Of a DNA stretch of 64,000 bases, positions 26,618-42,463 are shown one piece after another (positions within the stretch are counted from its first letter, which is position 1; the number at the start of each line of letters is the position of its first letter). The notes beneath the pieces are model-generated. The model was not told where the DNA came from. It saw nothing but the letters and a program-made list of their open reading frames with translations, and ran no database searches. The translations under genes were made by a program, and so were the position numbers. Source of the stretch: Orenia marismortui DSM 5156 (GTDB lineage Bacteria; Bacillota; Halanaerobiia; Halobacteroidales; Halobacteroidaceae); contig NZ_KB900617.1 of assembly GCF_000379025.1 (NCBI RefSeq), forward strand, positions 1,100,024 to 1,164,023, given 5' to 3'.

Positions 26618-28686
26618 ATAAAGTAGGACCAGCCTCACGGCTGGGACCCCTTGTCAAACTGTACGTACGGTTTTCCCGTATACAGCTTTCGGTTATTGGT
26701 GCTCCTTATCAGAGAGTAAGTCTTCGACTCTATGTTACCATAGATGTATATTTTACCCTTAATTAGAGCACATCAGTAAGTAATGATTGAAGTCCTTTAT
26801 CTCTTAGATAACTATTTGAAAAGCGATAATTTTGATACATTATCGCCTTTTTCTTTTCGATAAACGAACGCATTCTCATTCTAATCCATTTATCCAACCT
26901 CGTAAACAAAGTCTTCACATTTCCTATCTTGAAATAGTTACCCCAACCTCTCAAAACTGGATTTAATTTTGCAATTATTACTTCTACAGGAAAAGGTCTA
27001 GTTCTTCTAGTAATCTTTCTTACTTTGTTTTTGAATTTTGTTATTGCTTTATCTTTAGGTCTCTTGTATTCAGAATGGTGAAATTTGAATCCTAGAAATT
27101 CAAATCCATCATAAAAGTTAGTTACTACCGTCTTACGAGGATGAAGTTTCAACTTCAATTCATCCTCTATAATTTTACGGGTAACTTTTAACGCTCTCTT
27201 TGCTTTGCGCTTATTTTTAGTTAAGATTACAAAGTCGTCAGCAAAGCGGACTATTTTGTAACCTCGACGAGTCATTTTCTTATCAAAGTAATGTAAATAG
27301 ATATTAGCTAATAGAGGAGAGATGACACCTCCTTGAGGTGTCCCTTCTCTAGTTTCTTCTCTACCTTCTTCAGTCATAACTCCAATTGTCAGCCATGACC
27401 TGATAATATCTAATACCCAACCATCACTTATATATTCCGCTATAAAATCCATTAATAACTCATGGTCTATAGTATCAAAATAAGATTTAATGTCTGCGTC
27501 TACCACCCAGTAGTAACCTTGTTCTTTATATTTCTCTATCTTTTCTATCGCATCGTGAGCAGACCTATTAGGTCTGAAACCAAAGGAACATTCACAAAAT
27601 TCTCGCTCAAAGTATATTTCTAGTACTTGCCTCACTGCTTGTTGAGCAATTCTATCTTTGATTACTGGAATACCTAGTGGTCTCTTTTCTCCATTTCCTT
27701 TGGAAATGTACGTCCGTAACACTGGTAATGGCTCGTAAGTATTCTCTATCAGCTGTCTATGAAGTTCTCGCATATTCATCTTGTAATTATTTTTAAACTC
27801 TTCTATGCTTACATTATCAACTCCACCACAGCCACCATTATCCAGTACTTTTTGTCCTGCAATATATAAGTGAAATTTCTTTGTGATTTTATCCTTCAAA
27901 CTATATAGAGTTCGAAATTTTAACACCTATCCTAACTTCACTACTTACTAGTTCTTCCTGTCTCACCTTAATATCTTAATCCCTATATTCATAGCACTCC
28001 TGAGCACGTCTCTAAGCTCTCACCAATCGCACCTCTCAGTTTACCATTACTTAGGTTATGGTGTTCTCTAGGTTATCCATACTTTACAGTTATGATTTCC
28101 TGTTTGTAATTCTACTAGAACCCACTATAGTACTAGTGTTTAAACCACTCAAAATTAAGATATCATTAGTAATCAAATCTTAAACTTCAATAACCTAGAT
28201 ATCCTTCGCTATAATCAACTTTCGTTGATTTTTTTTCTCACTACTATGATATCTTCTGAACTCTAATATATCATCACTCTGGCTTTCCTGTTGGAGTTAT
28301 ACCATCACTTATCTCTATAGATTTCTATAAAGAATTATATTAGAGATTCCCTCGGTCAATTACGTAAACCCTACAATCATTCCGACCCTAATCACACCTA
28401 GTTTTCTAACATGGGCACTTCCAGTTACACGTATTTACCAGCGCTACCTGTCTCTCCTTTGTACAGAGCCCCAAGCTAACATTGGACTTCCCCGTTTTTA
28501 TGGCGGGTCGCCAAAGCTAAATGCCACCTCTGGTTCACATATTGTTCCGGACTGATTGCTCATCTCAAACTCTTCAGATTCTACCTCACGGTAGACACCC
28601 TGCTACTGTTGATTTCACACACCGTACTGGCGAAAACAGCATGGATAGGATTTTCACCTACTGTTTACTAAATCTACGAGGCACAC
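26618..28686 (-). mobile_element. Group IIC intron, complete copy with reverse transcriptase
   Basis: The minus-strand 5' end is GTGTGC at 28686. Domain V is recognisable near 26656-26690, with AAGCTGTATAC paired to GTACGTACAGTTT and a GGGAAAACC apical part. It is followed by a domain VI hairpin (CCAGCC/GGCTGG) and a 3' end near CCTACTTTAT at about 26618. The RT gene is in the middle. The element lies between spoIIID and flgF, directly behind the spoIIID terminator, the target preference known for class C introns. The last base is uncertain by a few positions. Confidence 0.9.
26763..27926 (-). CDS. ltrA: Group II intron reverse transcriptase/maturase
   Basis: The intron-encoded protein that splices and mobilises its own intron. 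RT blocks are visible: DADIKSYFD (143-151), EGTPQGGVISPLLANI (194-209) and the catalytic FADD (228-231). The maturase X domain follows (about 300-385; NPVLRGWGNYF). There is no HNH endonuclease at the C-terminus, which fits class C. The 387 residues look intact, so the element may be active. Confidence 0.95.
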   Translation of the reverse strand: MLKFRTLYSLKDKITKKFHLYIAGQKVLDNGGCGGVDNVSIEEFKNNYKMNMRELHRQLIENTYEPLPVLRTYISKGNGEKRPLGIPVIKDRIAQQAVRQVLEIYFEREFCECSFGFRPNRSAHDAIEKIEKYKEQGYYWVVDADIKSYFDTIDHELLMDFIAEYISDGWVLDIIRSWLTIGVMTEEGREETREGTPQGGVISPLLANIYLHYFDKKMTRRGYKIVRFADDFVILTKNKRKAKRALKVTRKIIEDELKLKLHPRKTVVTNFYDGFEFLGFKFHHSEYKRPKDKAITKFKNKVRKITRRTRPFPVEVIIAKLNPVLRGWGNYFKIGNVKTLFTRLDKWIRMRMRSFIEKKKAIMYQNYRFSNSYLRDKGLQSLLTDVL

Positions 28687-32983: not shown

Positions 32984-33016
32984 AAAAAAAGAGCAAGAGA
33001 TTTTCATCTCTTACTC
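32984..33016 (-). terminator. Terminator of the ATP synthase operon
   Basis: The stem GAGTAAGAGAT pairs with ATCTCTTGCTC around a GAAA loop and is followed by seven T. It overlaps the atpC stop codon. Confidence 0.87.
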
Positions 33017-33421
33017 AAAATTTCTTCCTTTAGTAACCTTTAATCGATTAATAGCCTTTCTTAGAGCAATCTCAGCTCTCTTAGGATTAATTGAGCTATC
33101 ATCTTTAGATAGACGCTTTTCAGCCCTCTTTTTAGCATTTTTAGCCCTATCAACATCAATTTCATCAGAATATTCAGCAGTATCAACTAAAATATTAATT
33201 TCTTCAGGTCTTACTTCAATATATCCCTGACTAGCTGCTAACTCTTTATCCTCTGATTCAGTTTTGATTTGAATCTGACCAATATCCAAACCTGTAACTA
33301 AAGGCTGATGCTCTGCCATAAATCCTCTATCACCATCTATGGTTCTAACAGTTACCATATTAGCTTCTCCGTCATAAACCACCTTTTCTGGTGTAATTAT
33401 ATTAAGTTTCATTTTAGACAT
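33011..33421 (-). CDS. atpC: ATP synthase F1 subunit epsilon
   Basis: Central-stalk subunit that couples rotation and can inhibit ATP hydrolysis. The N-terminal beta-sandwich shows KLNIITPEKVVYDGEA and GDRGFMAEHQPLVTGL; the C-terminal helix pair (about 90-136) is present. Length 136 is normal. Last gene of the operon, two bases after atpD. Confidence 0.95.
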   Translation of the reverse strand: MSKMKLNIITPEKVVYDGEANMVTVRTIDGDRGFMAEHQPLVTGLDIGQIQIKTESEDKELAASQGYIEVRPEEINILVDTAEYSDEIDVDRAKNAKKRAEKRLSKDDSSINPKRAEIALRKAINRLKVTKGRNFE

Positions 33422-33423
33422 GA

Positions 33424-34869
<1,446 letters not shown>

Positions 34870-34872
34870 TTA

Positions 34873-35727
34873 CTATTCTAAAGCTTCTGCCCCTCCAACA
34901 ATTTCTGATAATTCTTGAGTAATCGCAGCTTGACGAGCACGATTATAAGATAATTTCAGCTGTTCAATCATCTCTTCAGCATTATCAGTTGCTGAGTCCA
35001 TTGCTGTCATTCGAGAAGCAAATTCACTAGCTTTTGATTGTAACAAAGCACCAAAGATAATATTCTTTAGATACTGTGGTAATACAGCAGATAAAACTTC
35101 CTCTGCTGATGGATCATACAAATAACTATCCTCTATATCATCCAATTCCTCTGATTTTGGTGGCTCTACAGGTAGCAACTGTAAAGTATGTACATTTTGA
35201 CTAACCACAGAATTAAATTCTGTGTAAACCAAATGGATCTCATCAAGAATACCTTCTGTATATAGCTCTATTAATTCAGTAGCTATATTAGTCGCTGTAG
35301 CAAAACCAGGTTTATCATCTACCCCTATATATTCAGAGATAATTTCCGACTTATTTTTGAAATAATCTCTTCCTTTTTTACCGATAGTAATTAATGCATA
35401 ATCTTTATCTAATACCTTTACCTCTTTTTCAACCTCTTTAATCGCGCGACTATTATAAGCACCACATAGTCCTCGATCTCCAGTAATAAGTACATAAGCA
35501 ACTTTTTTAACATTACGCTTATTAAGCAAAGGATGTAAATCTTCATTAACATTAGCTGTAACGCTGTCTAATGTCTCTTTAGTTTTATCAAAAAAGGGCT
35601 TAGCATTTTCTGCTCTTTCTTGCGACTTTCTTAATTTAGCTGCAGCAACCATCTTCATAGCTCTAGTTATTTTCATAGTACTTTCCACGCTACTAATCTG
35701 CCGCTTAATATCCCGCATACTTGCCAT
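34873..35727 (-). CDS. atpG: ATP synthase F1 subunit gamma
   Basis: Rotating shaft of F1. The start MASMRDIKRQISSVESTMKI and the end TDNAEEMIEQLKLSYNRARQ, followed by AAITQELSEIVGGAEAL, are the two conserved coiled-coil helices. The middle Rossmann-like part contains ITGDRGLCGAYN. Length 284 is typical. Confidence 0.97.
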   Translation of the reverse strand: MASMRDIKRQISSVESTMKITRAMKMVAAAKLRKSQERAENAKPFFDKTKETLDSVTANVNEDLHPLLNKRNVKKVAYVLITGDRGLCGAYNSRAIKEVEKEVKVLDKDYALITIGKKGRDYFKNKSEIISEYIGVDDKPGFATATNIATELIELYTEGILDEIHLVYTEFNSVVSQNVHTLQLLPVEPPKSEELDDIEDSYLYDPSAEEVLSAVLPQYLKNIIFGALLQSKASEFASRMTAMDSATDNAEEMIEQLKLSYNRARQAAITQELSEIVGGAEALE

Positions 35728-35765: not shown

Positions 35766-37295
35766 TTAAGCAGTTTCTTTATCTTTGCTAGTAGCAAAAG
35801 TATCTTTAAATTCTTTAATTGCAGCTTTTAACTTCTCTTCTGTATCTTCTTCTAACTTACCACTTTTAACAATAGCTTCTCCTACTTCAGGATGTGTATC
35901 TTTCATAAATTTAATAAATTCTCTCTCAAATCTTCTAATATCTTCAACAGGAATATCATCTAAATAACCATTAGTTACTGTATAAATAATAATAACTTGC
36001 TCTTCTACTTCTAATGGACTTGTTTCATCCTGTTTTAATACTTCTACTATTCTTTCACCACGAGCTAATTTGTTCTGAGTAGACTCATCTAAATCAGATC
36101 CAAACTGTGCAAAAGCTTCTAACTCACGGTACTGTGACATATCTAACTTTAATGTACCTGCAACAGATTTCATTGCTTTAATCTGGGCATTACCACCAAC
36201 ACGAGATACAGATAGTCCTACATTTACTGCTGGACGTACACCTGAATAGAACAGTTCACTCTCTAAGAAGATCTGTCCATCAGTAATAGAAATTACATTT
36301 GTAGGTATATATGCTGAAATATCTCCTGCCTGTGTTTCAATAAGAGGTAATGCAGTTAAAGAACCTGCACCTAATTCATCATTTAATTTAGCAGCACGTT
36401 CTAACAATCTAGAATGCAAGTAGAAAACATCACCAGGGTAAGCTTCACGTCCAGGTGGTCTTCTTAAAAGTAATGACATTTCACGATAAGCAACAGCATG
36501 CTTTGATAAATCATCATATATAACTAAAACATCTTCTCCTTCATACATAAACCCTTCTCCAATAGTACACCCAGCATATGGAGCTAAATATTGTAATGGT
36601 GCAGGGTCACTAGCTGAAGCCGATACTACAGTTGTATATTCCATAGCACCTGACTCTTCTAGTTTATTTACAATCTGAGCAACTGTAGAAGATTTCTGAC
36701 CAATTGCTACATAGATGCACGCTACATCTTTACCTTTCTGGTTGATAATTGTATCAATTCCAATAGCTGTCTTACCAGTCTGTCGGTCACCGATAATTAA
36801 CTCACGTTGTCCCTTACCAATTGGAACCATAGAATCAATCGCTTTAATACCAGTTTGTAATGGTTCTTCTACTGGTTGACGATCAACAATACCTGGTGCT
36901 TCAGACTCAACAGGTCTACTTTTATCTGTATTAATTGGCCCTTTTCCATCAATTGCTTCACCTAAAGCATTAACTACACGACCTTTTAACTCTTGACCAA
37001 CAGGCACTTCAACTATTTTATTAGTTCTATGTACAGCATCGCCTTCTTCTATCTTAGATTCATCACCTAAAATAACACAACCGATACTATCTTCTTCCAA
37101 GTTTAATGCCATTCCATAAACATCACTTTCGAATTTTAACAATTCACCAGCCATAGCATCTTTTAAACCATGGATTCTGGCAATTCCGTCTCCAACACTA
37201 AGAACAGTTCCTACACCTTTTACTTCTAATTCTATATTATAATTTTTTATTTGATCTTTAATTATAGAACTGATCTCTTCTGGTCTAAGATTCAT
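35766..37295 (-). CDS. atpA: ATP synthase F1 subunit alpha
   Basis: Non-catalytic nucleotide-binding subunit. It shows the P-loop [15 protein letters not shown], the motif RELIIGDRQ, and the late conserved stretch [18 protein letters not shown] containing the arginine finger. The 509 residues are intact. Its start overlaps the end of atpH by 11 bases. Confidence 0.98.
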
Positions 37296-37860
37296 TTATT
37301 TTCACCCCTAACTTACTTACTTCTAAACCTTTTAGTTTATTCTCAAGATTTTTAAGATGATTTAATAAACTTCCATCGATTACTTTATCTCCAATTTTTA
37401 ATAATAACCCACCCAATAAATCTGGTTGAATCTTAGGTTTTAAAGTAACCTCTTTTTTCGTTATGCTTACTAACTTTTCTTTTAATCTTGATTTATTATC
37501 ATCTGACAATTCAATTGGTGTAAATACTTCTACTTCCAATCTATTCTCTTTTTTATCTACTAACTTAGTAAATTGATGATAAATAGATTTTAAGTAATTA
37601 ACTCTACCTTTGTCTATTAATAATTTGATAAAATTCAACAAATTAGTAGATAACTCTTCTTCAAAAACTTCAGTTAAGATATCTTTCTTTTGAACATTAC
37701 CAAGTTTAGGATGATCAATTACTTTTCTTAACTCGTTATTTTGCTCAATAATATTAAGAAATTCACTAAACTCATCTTGCATATCTAGTAATTTACCATC
37801 TTCAATCCCTAATTCAAATAAAGCCTGAGCATATTTTTCAGCTATTTGGTTTTCTAACAT
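37285..37860 (-). CDS. atpH: ATP synthase subunit delta
   Basis: Links F1 to the peripheral stalk. The N-terminal helical bundle ([19 protein letters not shown]) and the C-terminal [19 protein letters not shown] motif (family: GSIRTRL-like region) are both present. It overlaps atpF by seven bases and atpA by 11, showing tight coupling. Confidence 0.94.
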
Positions 37861-38360
37861 CCTAATTCACCCAGCTTATCTTTATCTATCTGTTCAATGT
37901 AACTTTCAATTGTCTTTTCTTGTACATCTTTATTAATAGATTGTTCTAATAATTGTCTAGTCATTTGAATAGAGATATCTGCTACTTCATCTTTTAAACT
38001 ATCAATAGCTTGCTCTTTAGCACGAGCAATCTCTTTTTCAGCTCTTTCAATCTTCTTATTACCTTCATTTTTGGCATTATTAACAATATCTTCAGCATCT
38101 CTTTGAGCTCTACGGCGACTTTTTTCAATTATATCTTGCGCTTCAGATTTAGCATCGTTTAAGATATTTTTATATTCCTCTTTTAAGTCCTCAGCTTCCT
38201 CTTCACGCTCTTGAGCTCTATTTATTTGTTCGGATATTTCTTCAGAACGACTATTCATTAAATTAGTTATTGGTTCAAATAAAAAGTGTTTTAATACCAT
38301 GTATAATATTATAAAGTTAATTAATTGAAGAACAAAAGTTGTTAAATCTAAAGAAATCAA
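37854..38360 (-). CDS. atpF: ATP synthase subunit b
   Basis: Peripheral stalk: one membrane helix (about 6-26, TTFVLQLINFIILYMVLKHF) and a long charged coiled coil to about 150. Length 168 is typical. A small stem-loop lies in the gap between it and atpE, a place where b and c expression is often set apart. Confidence 0.95.
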   Translation of the reverse strand: MISLDLTTFVLQLINFIILYMVLKHFLFEPITNLMNSRSEEISEQINRAQEREEEAEDLKEEYKNILNDAKSEAQDIIEKSRRRAQRDAEDIVNNAKNEGNKKIERAEKEIARAKEQAIDSLKDEVADISIQMTRQLLEQSINKDVQEKTIESYIEQIDKDKLGELGC

Positions 38361-38458: not shown

Positions 38459-38713
<255 letters not shown>

Positions 38714-38754: not shown

Positions 38755-39306
<552 letters not shown>

Positions 39307-39337: not shown

Positions 39338-40060
39338 TTATTCAATCTCTGTTGAAATATAAGTCATAGTTAACATTGTAAAGATAAAGGCTTGTAAGAG
39401 ACCTGCAAAGACATCAAAATAAAGACTTGCTATCCCTGGAACAACAACTCCTACAACACTAAATAGCAATCCCATAATTACTACTCCACCTAGCATATTT
39501 CCAAACAAACGGAAAGAAAGAGATACAGGATCCGCTATTGCCCCAATTATGTTAAGTGGAACTAAAAATGGCATTGGCTCAAAATATCCTTTTATGTAAG
39601 ACCCTATTCCATTATACTTAATTCCAGAAACATGGACAGCAATAAATGTAATTAGAGCTAAAGCAAAAGTAGTATTTAGATCTGCTGTTGGAGTATACAG
39701 GTTAAATAAATCTCTTCCTGGAATAACCCCTACTAAGTTAGCAAATGTTAAGTAAATCATTAGTGTTCCAATATAAGGAGCATAACCCTTTCGTCCTTTA
39801 CCCATAGCATTATCTACTAAATTATAAATCGATTCTACTATAAATTCAGCTATATTCTGTAGACTAAATGGTCTAGGTTTTTTCTCTAAATTACGAGTTG
39901 CCAGCCAGGAGAAAACACCTAAAACAAATATAATTACCCAAGTAGTTGTAACTGTAGATTTAATTTGCAAACCAGCAATTTCAAATACTTTAGGAGCAAA
40001 AGCTTCCGAGTTAACTTCTTCAAGGAACATCTTATCAAATAGTTCAGTAAAGAAATTCAT
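39338..40060 (-). CDS. atpB: ATP synthase subunit a
   Basis: Stator membrane subunit providing the ion half-channels. The essential arginine is in SLSFRLFGNMLGG, in the conserved helix. The other hallmark GLLQAFIFTMLTMTYIS is near the C-terminus. Length 240, about five to six membrane spans. It precedes the two c genes. Confidence 0.96.
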   Translation of the reverse strand: MNFFTELFDKMFLEEVNSEAFAPKVFEIAGLQIKSTVTTTWVIIFVLGVFSWLATRNLEKKPRPFSLQNIAEFIVESIYNLVDNAMGKGRKGYAPYIGTLMIYLTFANLVGVIPGRDLFNLYTPTADLNTTFALALITFIAVHVSGIKYNGIGSYIKGYFEPMPFLVPLNIIGAIADPVSLSFRLFGNMLGGVVIMGLLFSVVGVVVPGIASLYFDVFAGLLQAFIFTMLTMTYISTEIE

Positions 40061-40063
40061 CTA

Positions 40064-40459
40064 TTAATTCCCCTCCTTTCTTACAACCTCTTCTTTCTGT
40101 GGATAAGATTTAAATAAATTGCTTAATAAAATAACTATCTTAACAGACAACATACCAACTATAGTAGTTAGCAAGTTTACATCTGGTCTTTTTAGAGCTA
40201 TGTAAAAAACAGTAAACCACAATAAATATCTGAATATATATTGAATAAAAACATAAGCTTGAGCCTTAATAGGAGGAAATTTAACAGCTTTTTGTAATGA
40301 ATGAGATAATAAAATAAAATTAATAATACTCATTAGCCCTCCTACAAACCAACCAAAAGCACTTTTAAAATCAAAACACAATAGTATTAAAATTATTATT
40401 AAATTCAATAAAGCAGTCCATTTAACTATATAATTTTTAGTTTCTTTTAATTCTTCCAC
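40064..40459 (-). CDS. atpI: ATP synthase subunit I-like protein
   Basis: A small four-span membrane protein (131 residues) placed second in the operon. The family assists c-ring assembly. Hydrophobic segments at about 12-30, 33-50, 70-90 and 95-115 are visible, with the family-like FGWFVGGLMSIINFILLSHS. Sequence conservation in this family is low, so position carries much weight. Confidence 0.8.
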   Translation of the reverse strand: MEELKETKNYIVKWTALLNLIIILILLCFDFKSAFGWFVGGLMSIINFILLSHSLQKAVKFPPIKAQAYVFIQYIFRYLLWFTVFYIALKRPDVNLLTTIVGMLSVKIVILLSNLFKSYPQKEEVVRKEGN

Positions 40460-40462
40460 TTA

Positions 40463-40687
40463 CTATCCCTTCCTATCTTCTTGCCCAGCTAATACTAACC
40501 TATAAGCACTTCTAAAACCAGTTAGTACTCCTAAAATAGTAAAAATAGCAAGAAAAATAATGTTAGTACCCAACCATTGATCCAATTTATTACCAAACCA
40601 AACACCAAAAATTATAGGCACTATAATGCTTATACCTATTTGTGATAATAAGCTTAAAGCCTTTAAAACGCCAATATTATCTTTCAT
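40463..40687 (-). CDS. atpZ: AtpZ/AtpQ-type small membrane protein
   Basis: First gene of the atp operon. The 74 residues hold two membrane helices, with FGVWFGNKLDQWLGTN between them and the ending GVLTGFRSAYRLV; this matches the AtpZ family (ATPase gene 1). Members are linked to c-ring assembly or Mg/Ca transport. A good ribosome-binding site (AGGAG) precedes the start. Confidence 0.82.
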   Translation of the reverse strand: MKDNIGVLKALSLLSQIGISIIVPIIFGVWFGNKLDQWLGTNIIFLAIFTILGVLTGFRSAYRLVLAGQEDRKG

Positions 40688-40797: not shown

Positions 40798-40839
40798 ATA
40801 AAAACCACAGGAACATATATAGATATAGAACACCTGTGG
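40798..40839 (-). terminator. Terminator of the riboswitch expression platform
   Basis: On the minus strand CCACAGG (40833-40839) pairs with CCTGTGG (40805-40811), with extra AU pairs inside the loop, followed by five T. It lies between the aptamer and atpZ, so termination here would switch off the operon. Confidence 0.82.
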
Positions 40840-40861
40840 AAAAGTATGTCCCTCTTTTCAC

Positions 40862-40976
40862 ATGCCTACGAAGTTAGCTGTCGGATTCGGGTAGAGGATA
40901 CCCTACTGTTATTTGTAAATAATATCAGATTCACCCCAAAATTGGTTCCTCCGCTCCTTTAGGATTAGGCACTTTG
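40862..40976 (-). ncRNA. Cyclic-di-AMP riboswitch (ydaO/yuaA)
   Basis: On the minus strand the conserved ydaO/yuaA blocks appear in order: CCTAAAGGAGCGGAGGAACC, GGGGTGAATC (40928-40937), GGGTATCCTCTACCCGAATC, and CAGCTAACTTCGTAGGC (40864-40880). The ends pair as P1 (TGCCT with AGGCA). In known members the ligand c-di-AMP favours termination, and a terminator follows here. The next gene is atpZ, so the sensor controls the ATP synthase operon. Known targets are mostly potassium uptake, osmolyte and cell-wall genes. Confidence 0.92.
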
Positions 40977-40988
40977 CAATTTCTTTTC

Positions 40989-41017
40989 ATTATACTATAA
41001 AATTATATTATTGTAAA
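40989..41017 (-). promoter_or_regulatory. Sigma-A promoter for riboswitch and atp operon
   Basis: TTTACA (41012-41017) and TATAAT (40989-40994) are separated by exactly 17 bases. The expected start point lies a few bases before the aptamer. Confidence 0.83.
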
Positions 41018-41128
41018 GTTTATTTACTTTAATCAAGTTTAAAATTACTATAAAATACAAAGGCTTTGTTATATAAATTTATAGTTATTAACTTATTACT
41101 TAGACACCTCTCACTTTTAAAATTCCCA

Positions 41129-41158
41129 TTATTAAAACTGACCAGTCAGTTTTAATAA
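41129..41158. promoter_or_regulatory. TetR-like palindromic operator
   Basis: Two perfect 14-base arms (TTATTAAAACTGAC and its complement) surround a two-base centre. The two-base centre is too short for an RNA hairpin loop, so a DNA-binding site is more likely. The core CTGACCAGTCAG resembles sites of TetR-family repressors. It lies immediately downstream of the -10 box, covering the expected start point. No tetR gene is present in the window. Confidence 0.65.
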
Positions 41159-41159
41159 T

Positions 41160-41188
41160 ATTATAAACATTTCTGTTAAATTTGTCAA
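41160..41188 (-). promoter_or_regulatory. Consensus sigma-A promoter upstream of operator
   Basis: TTGACA (41183-41188), 17-base spacer, TATAAT (41160-41165): a perfect consensus. It points toward the riboswitch and atp operon, with only a nine-codon frame and no real gene in between. It may be a second, repressible promoter for the operon or the remnant of a lost gene. Confidence 0.75.
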
Positions 41189-41230: not shown

Positions 41231-41260
41231 TAAAAATCCAGGTACTAAAATACCTGGATT
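41231..41260 (-). terminator. Terminator of tagO/wecA-type gene
   Basis: A ten-base stem (AATCCAGGTA with TACCTGGATT) with a short loop is followed by five T on the minus strand. Confidence 0.82.
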
Positions 41261-41330: not shown

Positions 41331-42353
41331 TTAAACTCTTTTATTATAATTAGTGTTAAGATTTACTATCCCTAGCTTAATAATTCCTATTAAAATAAAT
41401 CCTAGCGAACTAAATATTAAAAATAATTGTTGAGATAACTCTGCTTCACTAACACCAATTGCAATCATCCCTAAAGAAATACTAATTAAATAAATAATCA
41501 TAACTACCTGAATTTGATTCAATCCTAATTCCAATAATTTATGATGCAGATGACCTTTATCAGCCTTAAAAATTGGTCTGCCAGCTAATTTACGCCTTAA
41601 TATAGCTAATAAAGTATCTATTATAGGGACTCCTAAAGCTAGCACTGGAATCAATAAAGTAATAAATGTTACACTCTTTAAAGTTCCTATAATCGAAATA
41701 CTACCTAACATAAAGCCTAAGAACATACTTCCTGTATCCCCCATAAAAATATCGGCAGGATTAAAATTATACTTTAAAAATCCCAAAACAGCCCCAATAA
41801 CTGTTAAAGCTAATATAACTGTTAAAACCTGACCTTGTTGATACGCAAAAATAGCTAAAGTTATAGTAGCTATAACTGAAACTCCTCCAGCTAAACCATC
41901 CAAACCATCTATTAAGTTAATTACATTAATAGTACTAATAATCCAAACTAAAGTTGTTGGTATACTTAAAATACCTAAATAATAAATACCACCAAAAGGA
42001 TTACTAATAAATCTAATCTTAATACCAAAAGAAATCAATACTAAAGCTACTAAAACCTGTCCAAGTAATTTAACTTTTGCTGACAACTCATATAAGTCAT
42101 CTAAAAGACCTAAAATAACAACTAAGGTTCCAGCAGCAATTATCCCTATAAATTTATCACTAAAGCCCGTCACTAATAAGGCAATTAATACTCCAAAATA
42201 AATACCTAATCCTCCTAAACTAGGAATAGGCTTAATGTTAATTCTACGTTTATTAGGATAATCTACTGCTCCTAATTTAAATGCCAGCTTTTTTACTTGT
42301 GGCATTACAAAATAACTACTTAATAATGCTAATAGTAATGGATAAATAAACAT
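41331..42353 (-). CDS. Undecaprenyl-phosphate GlcNAc-1-phosphate transferase, WecA/TagO family
   Basis: Transfers a sugar-1-phosphate to undecaprenyl phosphate, the first step of a lipid-linked surface polymer. About ten membrane helices are present, with the active-site motifs DDLYELSAKVKLLGQ, NLIDGLDGLAGG, FMGDTGSMFLG and the GHLHHKL loop typical of WecA/TagO rather than MraY. The ATG at 42353 is preferred for the AAAGGGG upstream. In a diderm it could start O-antigen or another envelope glycan; the substrate cannot be read from sequence. Confidence 0.88.
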   Translation of the reverse strand: MFIYPLLLALLSSYFVMPQVKKLAFKLGAVDYPNKRRINIKPIPSLGGLGIYFGVLIALLVTGFSDKFIGIIAAGTLVVILGLLDDLYELSAKVKLLGQVLVALVLISFGIKIRFISNPFGGIYYLGILSIPTTLVWIISTINVINLIDGLDGLAGGVSVIATITLAIFAYQQGQVLTVILALTVIGAVLGFLKYNFNPADIFMGDTGSMFLGFMLGSISIIGTLKSVTFITLLIPVLALGVPIIDTLLAILRRKLAGRPIFKADKGHLHHKLLELGLNQIQVVMIIYLISISLGMIAIGVSEAELSQQLFLIFSSLGFILIGIIKLGIVNLNTNYNKRV

Positions 42354-42463
42354 TTTACCCACCCCTTTCTAATTTCATAATAAGATTTGTTAACTAAAAT
42401 TATTAAGTCTAACTATATTCTATGAAATTAGATCATATCTTTCAATTATTAATTTTTGGAATA

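Follow-up and report, generated by a model that had tools for sequence, protein, structure and literature searches.

The sodium-type ATP synthase operon of Orenia marismortui DSM 5156 is very probably preceded by a genuine cyclic di-AMP (c-di-AMP) riboswitch, which controls transcription into this F-type operon and in which ligand binding favours termination. The element lies on the minus strand of a 64,000-nucleotide stretch of contig NZ_KB900617.1 (positions 1,100,024 to 1,164,023), referred to here as the window, whose own numbering is used throughout. c-di-AMP is known for the control of potassium, osmolytes and the cell wall. The RNA itself is an ordinary member of RF00379, the ydaO/yuaA class, and it is the ATP synthase operon as its target that looks new in the open literature covered. 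The leader is made up of the following parts:

40989..41017, minus strand: proximal sigma-A-type promoter, TTTACA-17-TATAAT, just 5' of the aptamer (11/12 match)
40847..40981, minus strand: full-length c-di-AMP (ydaO/yuaA) aptamer, RF00379, aligned with 23 relatives
40893..40897, minus strand: pseudoknot loop strand CCUCU, which pairs with 40851-40855
40851..40855, minus strand: pseudoknot 3' strand AGAGG, with P1 on one side and the terminator on the other (pseudoknot pairing test)
40800..40839, minus strand: intrinsic terminator CCACAGG...CCUGUGG-UUUUU, the expression platform (hairpin -10.8 kcal/mol)

The initial annotation had placed a ydaO/yuaA aptamer upstream of the atp genes, between a sigma-A promoter and an intrinsic terminator, and had proposed a covariance-model search as the check. 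This search (cmscan) gave an RF00379 match at 40981..40847 that scores 101.1 bits where the cut-off is 38 (E 7.5e-23), covering model positions 1-134 of 134, and the promoter, the terminator and the coordinates assigned to them were likewise found to be right. An Rfam scan of the whole window returned two matches, of which RF00379 is the better. A chance match is excluded by the score and by conservation. The aptamer also contains the pseudoknot that joins an internal loop to the strand 3' of P1, with a 6-base pairing of its own; across 24 aptamers, loops paired with their own tails score 16.4 as against 14.4 (sd 0.47) with swapped tails, and none of 1000 swaps did as well. We infer ligand binding by the atp copy, which is thus a predicted c-di-AMP sensor, and two diadenylate cyclase genes (PF02457) are present in the genome. 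Two or more such genes are present per genome in the family of the window and only one in a neighbouring family.

The arrangement of the leader is conserved. A terminator lies between the aptamer and atpZ in all seven atp leaders compared, in three unrelated sequence types, and the best hairpin with its T-run was reached in 0, 1 or 2 of 200 dinucleotide shuffles per leader (2 of 200 for the window, whose terminator was missed by a simple terminator scan because its loop exceeds 8 bases). When the window is compared with two other Orenia genomes, identity is 74-91% for promoter, aptamer and terminator (90% for the proximal promoter), as against 41-56% for the flanks, namely the segments 5' of the distal promoter described below, between the two promoters and 3' of the terminator.

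Beyond the terminator the genes run in the order atpZ-I-B-c1-c-F-H-A-G-D-C, with open reading frames and protein families in agreement with one another and with the order first proposed:

40463..40687, minus strand: atpZ (PF09527)
40064..40459, minus strand: atpI (PF03899)
39338..40060, minus strand: atpB, F0 subunit a (TIGR01131)
38755..39306, minus strand: 4-helix c subunit, Acetobacterium woodii c1-like (best solved match 4bem_J, F1FO ATPASE C1 SUBUNIT, E 8e-68)
38459..38710, minus strand: 2-helix c subunit with the sodium-type residues GIGQG and AETT (TIGR01260)
37854..38360, minus strand: atpF (TIGR01144)
37285..37860, minus strand: atpH (TIGR01145)
35766..37295, minus strand: atpA (TIGR00962)
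34873..35727, minus strand: atpG (TIGR01146)
33424..34851, minus strand: atpD (TIGR01039)
33011..33421, minus strand: atpC (PF02823, PF00401)

The sodium-type assignment, made already in the initial annotation, is supported by the c-subunit motifs, as judged from sequence. The 83-residue c subunit has a glutamine in helix 1 (GIGQG) and Glu-Thr in helix 2 (AETT), residues characteristic of sodium c rings that its relatives share. In the 183-residue 4-helix subunit, hairpin 1 carries Q and E-T/S whilst hairpin 2 reads GQTT, with Q replacing the ion-binding E; its solved relatives include the sodium-specific c ring 1yce. The subunit aligns over 178 residues with c1 of the A. woodii Na+ F1Fo ATP synthase (PDB 4bem), a match over its length with the same hairpin 2 E-to-Q change. 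The operon thus appears to encode the A. woodii-type hybrid c-ring gene set, in which a 4-helix c1 that has lost one of two ion-binding carboxylates accompanies a 2-helix c. The two systems differ in that the Orenia host is without the acetyl-CoA synthase family and in that its operon stands under a c-di-AMP riboswitch. A role for the enzyme as a pump only, argued from the absence of Rnf, was ruled out, as a complete-looking Rnf gene cluster is present in the genome. Elsewhere in the same class, one short contig (locus L228, 2-2353, of G048 contig C73) holds a single open frame of at least 783 residues with about ten tandem c-subunit hairpins, and the genes after it look like those of V/A-type ATPase subunits; the genome is incomplete and contamination is possible. 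In Halonatronum, atpA is seemingly duplicated in tandem (L034, 8032-11143), although the two copies match exactly as far as a stretch of N, and this is probably an assembly artefact.

The genome of the window is 3.46 Mb in size, and the nearest named relative of its AtpB is that of Orenia metallireducens (78%). The group is taken here to be the family Halobacteroidaceae, whose members are halophilic anaerobes. Relatives compared include Halanaerobacter jeridensis, Halonatronum saccharophilum, Natroniella acetigena and N. sulfidigena, together with two genomes that we take to be Halobacteroides halobius (G007) and Acetohalobium arabaticum (G001). c-di-AMP riboswitches occur in all 13 genomes of the order. 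A survey of related atp leaders, suggested in the initial annotation, found the riboswitch before atpZ in 6 of the 8 Halobacteroidaceae genomes and in four of the five genera, these being Orenia (3 genomes), Halonatronum, Halanaerobacter and probably Halobacteroides. When the positions of riboswitches and c subunits were cross-checked over 59 genomes of the class, one further case emerged, in a genome of another family (G029), and a separate scan of that genome and its gene order confirm it. No ATP synthase genes were found within about 3.2 kb 3' of the riboswitch in any of 100 high-scoring c-di-AMP riboswitches listed from 77 other Bacillota genomes, a sample which is the high-scoring end of a longer list, includes three stretches of less than 2 kb at contig ends, and hence bounds other cases without excluding them.

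In its full-length aptamer, conserved core, pseudoknot and terminator platform the window copy resembles the rest of the ydaO/yuaA class, and differs in its target, a complete F-type ATP synthase operon. No description of a c-di-AMP or ydaO riboswitch with an ATP synthase target was found in the part of the open literature covered, which does not extend to the genes listed by Nelson 2013 and Block 2010, the two main papers on the class, so that any priority is provisional. It is Na+-I (DUF1646) riboswitches, rather than c-di-AMP ones, that have been tied to ATP synthase genes (PMC9971707, a review from the Breaker laboratory; PMC9337991). They too are ion-status riboswitches ahead of such genes, but they represent another RNA with another ligand and act as an ON switch. 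In the atp loci searched and in the window itself, no Na+-I match rose above the Rfam threshold; at the atp operons without the switch, those of two Natroniella and of five other relatives, neither Na+-I nor any other Rfam element did so. A further parallel is the tandem Na+/c-di-AMP riboswitch of Dehalobacter (PMC9337991), where a terminator that reduces read-through likewise comes after a c-di-AMP aptamer. That switch has two tandem aptamers and controls lysine 2,3-aminomutase, whereas the window leader has a single aptamer.

The proposed mechanism would begin with polymerase, starting from the proximal promoter (in Orenia also from a second, upstream promoter), transcribing the aptamer first. 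At high c-di-AMP the aptamer and its pseudoknot would be held folded, allowing the terminator hairpin to form, and most transcripts would end before atpZ. At low c-di-AMP, a state that by analogy may reflect scarce potassium or an increase in salt outside the cell, the 3' portion of the aptamer would instead pair with the left arm of the terminator, and this sequestration would permit read-through into the atp operon. The OFF direction is most likely, since the terminator is in the same place as in characterised members. Binding of c-di-AMP to the riboswitch of rpfA in Streptomyces leads to transcription termination (PMC10117811), and the Dehalobacter switch shows under 5% read-through with the ligand (PMC9337991). 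The interpretation offered in the initial annotation has held in part, namely for the aptamer class, the terminator platform, the operon, the sodium-type c subunits and the halophile host, whilst the lowering of expression by c-di-AMP is drawn by analogy from rpfA and Dehalobacter.

Several observations weigh against this scheme. Antiterminators can be drawn, and their duplex energies beat those of shuffled arms in two of the seven leaders (Halonatronum, p 0.03; Halobacteroides, p 0.05), but in the other five, that of the window included (p 0.33), they are no better than shuffled arms. The terminator of the window leader forms anyway in equilibrium folding, so that switching would have to be kinetic. 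In Halanaerobacter a possible promoter, seen by eye, between the terminator and atpZ would bypass the switch. An OFF switch should have an antiterminator, and its lack of statistical support in five leaders is also what would favour the opposite effect of ligand binding, by which high c-di-AMP would raise ATP synthase synthesis, whether through an ON switch or chiefly through the stability of the mRNA. This is improbable given that the terminator stands directly 3' of the aptamer in all seven leaders and that the characterised members terminate when ligand is bound (PMC10117811, PMC9337991). Slightly less probable still is an origin of the atp aptamer as a copy of the trkH or histidine-kinase riboswitch that has decayed or is neutral and now serves only as a constitutive leader. 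The genome does hold two more RF00379 copies, one near a contig end and a related aptamer before trkH, and Natroniella manages without an atp aptamer. Against such decay, however, the atp copy scores 101 bits, on a par with the trkH copy (103), its aptamer and terminator are conserved across species where the flanks have diverged, and its pseudoknot covaries.

Both Natroniella species lack the atp riboswitch and the 4-helix c1, and RF00379 was not among the matches up to E 1 when a remnant was sought in N. acetigena. A phylogeny of ATP synthase subunits nests both within the riboswitch-bearing clade (100/99). The simplest reading is that the family gained the switch once and lost it once, and that the G029 case is separate. 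PF03598, the acetyl-CoA synthase family, occurs in both Natroniella and in 4 of 5 genomes of the neighbouring family, and in none of the seven genomes that carry the atp riboswitch, the host of the window among them. This pattern is a lead rather than a test, because few independent events underlie it.

Further upstream lie features of which the distal promoter and the palindrome were absent from the account given in the initial annotation:

41160..41188, minus strand: distal promoter TTGACA-17-TATAAT (12/12), found in both other Orenia genomes too
41135..41152, no strand assigned: palindrome AAACTGACTGGTCAGTTT, overlapping the start of the distal promoter, with its core conserved in three Orenia species
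41235..41260, minus strand: intrinsic terminator of the upstream gene (terminator scan, 11-pair stem and T run)
41331-42362: upstream gene, glycosyl transferase 4 (PF00953)

The terminator at 41235..41260 sets the atp leader apart from the glycosyl transferase gene. The palindrome AAACTGACTGGTCAGTTT is a probable TetR-family operator. Its core, ACTGACYRGTCAGT, is found at the second, consensus atp promoter (41128-41188) in the three Orenia genomes, and the motif occurs in 1-2 copies in 10 of the 13 genomes of the order, with none for a reversed control. Its sites (L222, L226 and others) lie mostly 5' of genes that by eye resemble RND-type exporters, and one is at the start of a TetR-like gene (L223). 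Given these positions, a TetR regulator of the efflux type may act on the atp operon as well; the same recurrence rules out the palindrome as a unique RNA element. Elsewhere in the window a group II intron catalytic domain match was found at 26618-26690 (minus strand, 46.9 bits).

As to what the switch is for, we think that it would control ion pumping jointly with potassium uptake, because the TrkH gene of the same genome stands under the same switch class. A tentative and wider reading, to which we give rather less than even weight, is that a single RNA-sensed messenger, c-di-AMP, would adjust both the level of the rotary sodium ATPase and potassium uptake by TrkH, and so direct sodium export and potassium import in a salt-tolerant fermenter; this control would have disappeared in lineages that acquired or retained the acetyl-CoA pathway. 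The RNA mechanism would be no different if c-di-AMP instead signalled that ATP is sufficient and called for less ATP synthase. The messenger is made from ATP, and with an Rnf cluster in the genome the enzyme could act as a synthase. Such energy feedback is rather unlikely, as TrkH shares the switch class in this genome, the atp switch is found within the order only in genomes without acetyl-CoA synthase, and characterised systems tie c-di-AMP to potassium and osmotic state (reviewed in PMC10117811). If control by c-di-AMP holds, the main energy-coupling machine of these bacteria, the ATP synthase, would be placed under this messenger and osmotic state joined to bioenergetics through one RNA, for which the loss of the switch in Natroniella would provide a natural comparison.
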